Positions 1-1,400 of a DNA stretch of 61,358 bases are shown piece after piece. Below the pieces are notes generated by a model. That model saw only the letters and a list, made by a program, of their open reading frames with translations, searched no databases and was not told where the DNA came from. Made by a program: the position numbers and the translations under genes. The number at the start of each line of letters is the position of its first letter. Position 1 is the stretch's first letter. Source of the stretch: Brachyspira innocens ATCC 29796. GTDB lineage: Bacteria; Spirochaetota; Brachyspiria; Brachyspirales; Brachyspiraceae. The DNA is taken from assembly GCF_000384655.1 (NCBI RefSeq), contig NZ_ARQI01000114.1, forward strand, positions 1-61,358, written 5' to 3'.

Positions 1-95
1 ACACAACACACAACACACAACACACAACACACAACACACAACACACAACACACAACACACAACACACAACACACAACACACAACACACAACACAC
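1..95. repeat. 7-bp tandem repeat (acacaac), about 13.6 copies, cut by window edge
   Basis: The unit acacaac repeats without any interruption from the first base to position 95, so the true array is longer and starts outside the window. The unit length is not a multiple of three, so gain or loss of one copy shifts the reading frame. The array reads without stop codons into the outer-membrane barrel gene that follows, whereas the other two frames stop at 98-100 and 106-108. That is the layout of a slipped-strand contingency locus. Confidence 0.97.
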
Positions 96-1400
96 TATAA
101 AAAGTTAATACCCATAGCAAAAATTTTTTACTTCTCTTGTTTTTGTATTATGTTAATCAGTGTCATTAAATACAATGCATATTCTCAGACAACAAATACT
201 AATAATATAAAAAGATACGGACAATTATCAGCCTCTTTAGAAATGGTAGCATACGGAAGAATGAGCGATCTTATAGAACAGACTGGAAATGAGGATACAT
301 TGGGAGTACTCTTATACGGAGATTTAAACTACATAAAAGAATATAAATATGCTTATATAGAGGCTAATATGAATGTAAGATTTTATGAGCCATTATCTCA
401 TAAAGCAAGATTTTATAAGGATATGTCTCCTCCAGTATTTGATTTTTCAAAGATGAATATATTTGTAAATTTCAAATATGTAGGGATAAGAGTAGGAGTT
501 TTAGAACCATATACAAAAAATATACCGATGACTTCATACTTCCCTACCCTATTTTATTATCATACAGTAAGCAGCAATAAAGCAACTGTACTTTCTGGAC
601 CAAGAGATATGCCTATAGGATATGATACTCAGTTTATACCAAGATACGATACTGGATTAATGGTAGAAGCCAATTTCTTTGGGGTATTTATAGGTGTAGG
701 AATGGTTAATGGTGAAATGGGACTTGATGCTAATTCTTCTAAAGGACTTATGGCTAAGGTAGCATACAGCAATGACTATGTAAATACTGGAGTAGCTGGC
801 ATAGTTACAGAAATAGGTTCTCAGCCAATCAAAGAATGGGGAGACAGCATTAATGCATTTTTTTACTTTAGAAATGGAAGAGATGGAAGATTTACTGTAG
901 GAATTGAGGGTTTTTGGTTCAGACATGGTATAAGAGTATATAATCAATATTTCCCCGGTGAAGATAATACAAATACTCCTCATTTTAATGACGGATATTA
1001 TACTGATTTTTCTGTGCAGACATTTAACGGATCAAAACCATATTACGGAATGAGCGGATTTATATTCTTTGAAGCCAGAAGATTATGGAAATTTGATATA
1101 ACAGCACATTTCGGTGTACATGATAATAATATATATTCAAATGCAGAAGATATTTATCAGCTTAAATACAGAGCTTTCTTAAGAATAACTTTTAATATAA
1201 CTGATGATTTCAAAATTATGCTTTCTGATACTTTTACCTATGACCCAGTATACAAAAATAATTATCAATATTATGAATTAGAAAATAGAAACCAAGTTGG
1301 AGTTATATCATATAATGAAAAAAATGGACACTATACAGTAGATAATGATTTTTATTTAGGTTTAAGCTTTAAATTCGGCGGTGTATGGGGAAACAAATAA
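3..1400 (+). CDS. Outer-membrane beta-barrel (porin-like) protein, 5' end outside window
   Basis: A protein of more than 416 residues rich in Tyr, Phe, Gly and alternating hydrophobic strands, with many short aromatic-ended strands and a C-terminal strand LGLSFKFGG, as in spirochaete outer-membrane barrels. The first ATG is at 150, but it falls in the middle of a hydrophobic segment and has no ribosome site. The frame stays open upstream: codons 96-185 give YKK, a hydrophobic run, and AYS before Gln, a good signal peptide with a peptidase site. The true start therefore probably lies upstream of or inside the 7-bp repeat, which would be translated as Thr/His/Gln/Asn repeats ahead of the signal sequence. 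Function (adhesin, porin or antigen) is not identifiable. Use of ATG 150 would leave a poor signal peptide. Confidence 0.75.
   Translation, partial: TTHNTQHTTHNTQHTTHNTQHTTHNTQHTTHYKKLIPIAKIFYFSCFCIMLISVIKYNAYSQTTNTNNIKRYGQLSASLEMVAYGRMSDLIEQTGNEDTLGVLLYGDLNYIKEYKYAYIEANMNVRFYEPLSHKARFYKDMSPPVFDFSKMNIFVNFKYVGIRVGVLEPYTKNIPMTSYFPTLFYYHTVSSNKATVLSGPRDMPIGYDTQFIPRYDTGLMVEANFFGVFIGVGMVNGEMGLDANSSKGLMAKVAYSNDYVNTGVAGIVTEIGSQPIKEWGDSINAFFYFRNGRDGRFTVGIEGFWFRHGIRVYNQYFPGEDNTNTPHFNDGYYTDFSVQTFNGSKPYYGMSGFIFFEARRLWKFDITAHFGVHDNNIYSNAEDIYQLKYRAFLRITFNITDDFKIMLSDTFTYDPVYKNNYQYYELENRNQVGVISYNEKNGHYTVDNDFYLGLSFKFGGVWGNK

Follow-up and report, generated by a model that had tools for sequence, protein, structure and literature searches.

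A heptamer repeat between the start codon and signal peptide of a putative outer-membrane protein gene in Brachyspira innocens: a candidate translational phase-variation switch

RESULTS

A heptamer array runs in frame into the signal peptide of a conserved protein

Inspection of contig NZ_ARQI01000114.1 of Brachyspira innocens ATCC 29796 (61,358 nt, hereafter the window; contig C114 of the 3.28-Mb, 130-contig genome G000) revealed a heptamer array at its left end, directly followed by the gene of a putative outer-membrane protein. Positions 1–95 form a perfect (ACACAAC)n tract of period 7, with 13.6 copies and a 100% match in Tandem Repeats Finder (TRF), which is far beyond chance. Because the contig begins inside the array and array-bearing contig ends share the same 95-nt length, 13.6 is a floor and not a copy number; a previous sequence-only reading of this DNA, which gave at least 13.6 copies, was thus confirmed as a minimum. 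In G000, 9 of the 59 contig ends inspected terminate within an array of 5- or 7-nt units; eight of these nine arrays are cut off after exactly 95 nt and the ninth after 74 nt, a uniformity that is the signature of an assembler word length. We found no further 5- or 7-mer arrays of at least 4 copies in ~464 kb of G000 contig sequence, because long arrays break this assembly.

The array is open in all frames and a single frame continues into the protein, the other two ending at 98–100 (32 codons) and 106–108 (35 codons), in agreement with the sequence-only reading. Behind the array the open frame reads YKKLIPIAKIFYFSCFCIMLISVIKYNAYS followed by Gln, a signal peptide judged by eye. Its predicted end before Gln, and the position of the ATG at 150 inside its hydrophobic core, had also been read correctly.

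The mature protein is encoded in 24 of 26 Brachyspira genomes as a single copy with 76–97% identity, and the orthologues in B. hampsonii, B. alvinipulli, B. pilosicoli and Brachyspira sp. G79 are 85–97% identical at the protein level. Among the array carriers dN/dS is 0.04–0.12, indicative of purifying selection; hence the gene is not decaying. Searches of Pfam, NCBIfam and PDB with the protein gave no match, and an AlphaFold model of the mature protein, made with 13 close homologues, had a mean predicted local distance difference test (pLDDT) score of 29.6, which is very low confidence. The mature protein is probably an outer-membrane protein. The earlier description of it as a barrel is plausible, although neither the database searches nor the structural model bore it out. 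Its designation as a surface antigen, in the sense of antigenic variation, is doubtful given the mean column identity of 91% in a 13-sequence alignment and a dN/dS of ~0.1.

The start region lies on a second contig

Elsewhere in G000 the heptamer array occurs in a single place, the start of contig C127, on the opposite strand. Read outward, C127 runs ...TTGACTTATATGTAGTAATATTATATTATAAGGAGATGATTAATGAAAAAAC(CACAACA)n and then ends; a Shine-Dalgarno (SD) sequence, AAGGAG, is followed by ATG-AAA-AAA-CC straight into the array. Both flanks resemble those of one array in the complete related genome G009 (88.8% identity over 801 nt on the C127 side and 92% over 800 nt behind the array on the window side), where they are contiguous around that genome's own array, and the window-side flank is 93.8% identical to genome G015. 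As judged from the sequence, the end of C127 and the start of the window are the two sides of one array, so that the gene would begin MKKPQ(HTTHNTQ)n and continue through THYKKLIPIAKIFYFSCFCIMLISVIKYNAYS to the Gln. The sequence-only reading had placed the start codon upstream of the tract, taken the tract for a Thr/His/Gln leader and proposed reading the bases left of the window; such an arrangement was seen on C127 and in six related genomes. A perfect array with a unit length not divisible by 3 is thus found between start codon and gene body.

Two ATG codons precede the array. The spacing from GGAG is 7–8 nt for ATG2 and 0–1 nt for ATG1, compared with 6–9 nt in those array-free orthologues in which the spacing is clear; ATG1 is 7 nt upstream of ATG2, is in a different frame and touches the SD sequence. 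By frame arithmetic, arrays of 101, 122 or 143 nt connect ATG2 to the protein, those of 115, 136 or 157 nt are in frame with ATG1 only, and those of 108, 129 or 150 nt connect neither ATG, reading ending just behind the array.

Arrays of different length, unit and phase occupy the same site in related species

We compared 26 Brachyspira genomes, one per species. Seven of the 24 orthologues, the window's own included, carry an array at this site, and 17 do not. The unit is ACACAAC in G000, G015, G024 and G021, ACACAGC in G009, AACAAGC in G017 and CAACA in G011, and the arrays extend over 30–115 nt and more. Lengths of 40, 115 and at least 95 nt are found between flanks that are 89–94% identical; array length therefore varies far more than the flanks. 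The comparison of repeats across related genomes that had been proposed as a check thus revealed differing lengths, units and frames in the seven carriers. In a tree of the mature part the carriers are spread over several clades, from which we conclude that gain, loss or renewed seeding of arrays took place repeatedly, with units turning over at a fixed position.

Array-free orthologues go from the ATG directly into the signal peptide. The array-free MNKYNKKHYKKL... and the array-bearing MKKPQ...HYKKL... have the downstream signal peptide in common, and the extension replaces nothing. One array-free orthologue, that of G008 (locus L028), has a 1-nt frameshift at a T run inside the signal peptide; this gene may be off, may be phase-variable through the homopolymer, or may contain a sequencing error.

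Table 1. Features of the window gene, its start region on C127 and the orthologous arrays
Feature	Position	Strand	Remarks
(ACACAAC)n array, coding (Thr/His/Asn/Gln)	1..95	+	Ended by contig edge; true length at least 95 nt
Open frame through array into protein	3..1400	+	465 codons, 5′-open; start codon at end of C127
Signal peptide YKKLIPIAKIFYFSCFCIMLISVIKYNAYS	96..185	+	Predicted cut before Gln at 186; array-free orthologues have the equivalent directly at ATG
First in-window ATG	150..152	+	Within hydrophobic core, no SD sequence; not a credible start
Mature putative outer-membrane (beta-rich) protein, 404 aa	186..1397	+	Single copy
Start region, locus L022 on C127	SD AAGGAG 118-113; ATG1 112-110; ATG2 105-103	minus	
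G015, ACACAAC x16.4			ATG2 out of frame, ATG1 in frame; inside long scaffold
G009, ACACAGC x5.7			ATG2 out of frame, ATG1 in frame; complete single-contig genome
G024, ACACAAC x4.3			ATG2 in frame
G021, CAACACA arrays			On two contig ends
G017, AACAAGC x4 or more			At contig start
G011, pentamer CAACA x7.2			Upstream ATG in frame

Arrays beside start codons recur across the genus

Of the 26 Brachyspira genomes, 18 contained CAACA pentamer arrays, against 2 of 367 other Spirochaetota; the five remaining genomes from the same family and order had none. All 36 of the CAACA arrays with a visible left edge begin 0–4 nt after an ATG, compared with an expected 8% (p ~1e-28, counting only the 26 distinct upstream sequences). 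They are mostly at sugar-transferase, methyltransferase and arylsulfotransferase-like genes; the neighbouring genes gave matches to arylsulfotransferase, GT8, GT29, FkbM and class-24 methyltransferases, radical SAM, DUF1796 and OMP_b-brl_2, and are for the most part the usual targets of phase variation. At other loci of the genus, arrays of unequal length (39 vs 69 nt; 57 vs 51 nt) have flanks that are 95–98% identical. A tblastn search of plasmids with an array-linked glycosyltransferase gave no Brachyspira match.

A 400-kb sample of G009 contained seven further long arrays with 5- or 7-nt units (ACTGTAG, AGAAC, AGACC, TTGAT, GATTTGC, GATGC and CAAGA), whereas units of 2–4 nt formed only short runs of 4–6 copies. 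Five of the seven follow an ATG on one strand within ~20 nt, and the other two are located 3′-terminally in long reading frames. The latter are the AGAAC and AGACC pentamer arrays of locus L123 (1499-1565 and 4158-4197); in addition, the protein downstream at locus L069 of G004 ends in DQTRPDQTRP. Thus C-terminal tails may vary in frame as well.

Two designs can be distinguished. In-frame array fusions comprise the window gene, arylsulfotransferase-like lipoproteins of G019 and a methyltransferase-like protein of G014. At most array loci the ATG and array instead open a short leader open reading frame (ORF), the longest frame of which stops close to where a separate gene begins, and at five loci (L068, L078, L091, L093 and L112) the leader TGA overlaps the next gene's ATG (ATGA). 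Openness of the leader ORFs exceeded that of dinucleotide shuffles with moderate significance (Fisher p = 0.0018; 24 loci, partly orthologous), and because the excess is only moderate, translational coupling by the leaders is kept as a hypothesis. With somewhat more doubt than confidence, we propose genus-wide phase variation by 5- and 7-nt repeats behind start codons, including a leader design in which array length would control the downstream gene through translational coupling. Genes hypothetically controlled in this way would be those for arylsulfotransferase-like lipoproteins, glycosyltransferases, radical SAM proteins and methyltransferases.

Several further observations concern these loci. 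Synteny of contigs C35 and C100 of G000 (L116 and L119) with locus L097 of G009 suggests that the two contigs probably flank one CAACA-array switch before an arylsulfotransferase-like lipoprotein gene. The motif I.WWIPFKKLRN is common to proteins of L080, L087, L094, L102, L107 and L114, at either the N- or the C-terminus of glycosyltransferases, methyltransferases and radical SAM proteins that adjoin arrays but are not otherwise related, and is possibly a common targeting or complex-forming segment. The window also contains a 12-nt repeat at 5952-6017, in the 3′ part of an Rpn/PD-(D/E)XK-like gene (KGIEKGIEK), with similar arrays in L153 and L140; since 12 is a multiple of 3, it stays in frame whatever its length and is no switch.

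DISCUSSION

A probable translational contingency locus

The array very probably serves as the variable element in a translational contingency locus that operates by slipped-strand phase variation. According to this model, transcription and ribosome binding would begin to the left of the array, at AAGGAG followed after 7 nt by ATG-AAA-AAA-CC and the array itself, which would be translated as a hydrophilic (TTHNTQH)n extension ahead of an ordinary Sec signal peptide. The predicted array-encoded N-terminal peptides are MKKPQHTTHNTQ. Slipped-strand mispairing would add or remove a unit and, because 7 = 1 mod 3, each one-unit change would shift the downstream gene to another frame. One in three array lengths would join ATG2 to the protein and turn expression ON, whereas lengths in frame with ATG1 only would perhaps allow weak expression, ATG1 touching the SD sequence. 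Three expression states would therefore be possible.

The anatomy of the locus, its frames, the length and phase differences between species, the purifying selection on the gene and the recurrence of such arrays across the genus are all direct observations. Of the earlier suggestion that the gene is phase-variable, the part that stands is the difference in array length and phase between species; the ON/OFF switching by frame we infer, and the model presumes slippage within strains, a functional extended signal peptide and a surface location of the protein.

Several points weigh against this model. The array-length differences were seen between species, each represented by one genome, and because the assembly breaks at the array, its length in G000 is known only as at least 95 nt. 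Joining C127 to the window rests on repeat identity and synteny. A promoter-like TTGACT-17-TATTAT match ends 6 nt before ATG1; if it is real, transcription starts near ATG1 and the SD sequence would be absent from the mRNA. Moreover, G009 and G015 were both assembled with the better start codon, ATG2, out of frame, which would fit a gene that is OFF most of the time, initiation at ATG1, or mere chance. Finally, the array-free orthologues indicate that switching is not needed for the function of the protein.

Those same orthologues, together with the strong conservation of the single-copy mature protein, would also suit a neutral microsatellite whose out-of-frame lengths are purged, leaving the protein effectively always on. 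We consider this unlikely, since the two complete array loci nearest to G000 have ATG2 out of frame, and since neutrality predicts neither the recurrence of 5- and 7-nt units beside start codons throughout the genus nor their excess over 2- to 4-mers in the G009 sample. Heptamer arrays that act at promoters are known from hmw1A and hmw2A of H. influenzae (PMC2651432). An array acting before translation could likewise alter promoter spacing, as in the sequence-only reading's second option, or the 5′ untranslated region. Such a role is disfavoured and we regard it as very unlikely, because the array is behind the SD sequence and ATG in C127 and in the intact orthologues of G015, G009 and G024, and because a single frame leads through the entire array into the signal peptide without a stop; being downstream of the coding start, the Brachyspira array differs from the promoter type of hmw1A and hmw2A. 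There is almost no chance that the locus is a mis-joined contig end or a pseudogene. Although the window's array abuts a contig edge and nearly all array-bearing contig ends are of equal length, an array is found inside the single contig of G009 and the long scaffold of G015, and the dN/dS values argue against decay. Artefact and decay are thus refuted for the locus as such, and assembly affects copy number only.

Comparison with known repeat switches

The closest parallels to a translated array of this kind are in other bacteria. In neuO of Escherichia coli K1, AAGACTC heptamers are in the 5′ coding region (PMC13001214). There, too, a heptamer array is translated near the start codon into an N-terminal extension and full-length protein results from one in three copy numbers, but neuO encodes a prophage-borne cytoplasmic O-acetyltransferase, whereas the Brachyspira extension stands before the signal peptide of a putative outer-membrane protein that is chromosomally encoded and conserved. 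Neisseria has genic CTTCT pentamers in opa and genic CAAACAC heptamers in pglE (PMC5953494), and H. influenzae has AACAACC heptamers at TonB-receptor genes (PMC2651432). The pglE and AACAACC arrays are likewise C/A-rich heptamers in genic contingency loci, although the genes and organisms are unrelated. In opa, as would be the case here, an outer-membrane protein gene has a coding repeat at its signal-peptide end and slippage shifts the frame; the likeness drawn here is one of design, and opa is a multi-gene antigen family whereas the Brachyspira gene is single and conserved. In opa the signal peptide is itself partly encoded by the repeat, whereas the Brachyspira array is in front of an intact one. 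The CAAT repeats of the H. influenzae lic genes are accompanied by alternative start codons that differ in frame. A pair of start codons out of phase with each other before the array, allowing three expression states, is a feature in common with lic, whose unit is a tetramer in lipopolysaccharide genes; use of the second start in Brachyspira is predicted from the sequence.

Implications for Brachyspira

Translational slipped-strand phase variation is itself a known mechanism. We found no description of it in Brachyspira in the literature searched, which did not cover subscription journals, and the Brachyspira repertoire is apparently undescribed. Swine dysentery and intestinal spirochaetosis are caused by members of this genus. 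If slippage does take place, a single colony would be a mixture with respect to a conserved putative outer-membrane protein and to surface-sugar and sulfate-transfer genes, which would bear on the choice of vaccine antigens, on serology and phage sensitivity, and on how 'frameshifted' genes in Brachyspira genomes are interpreted.
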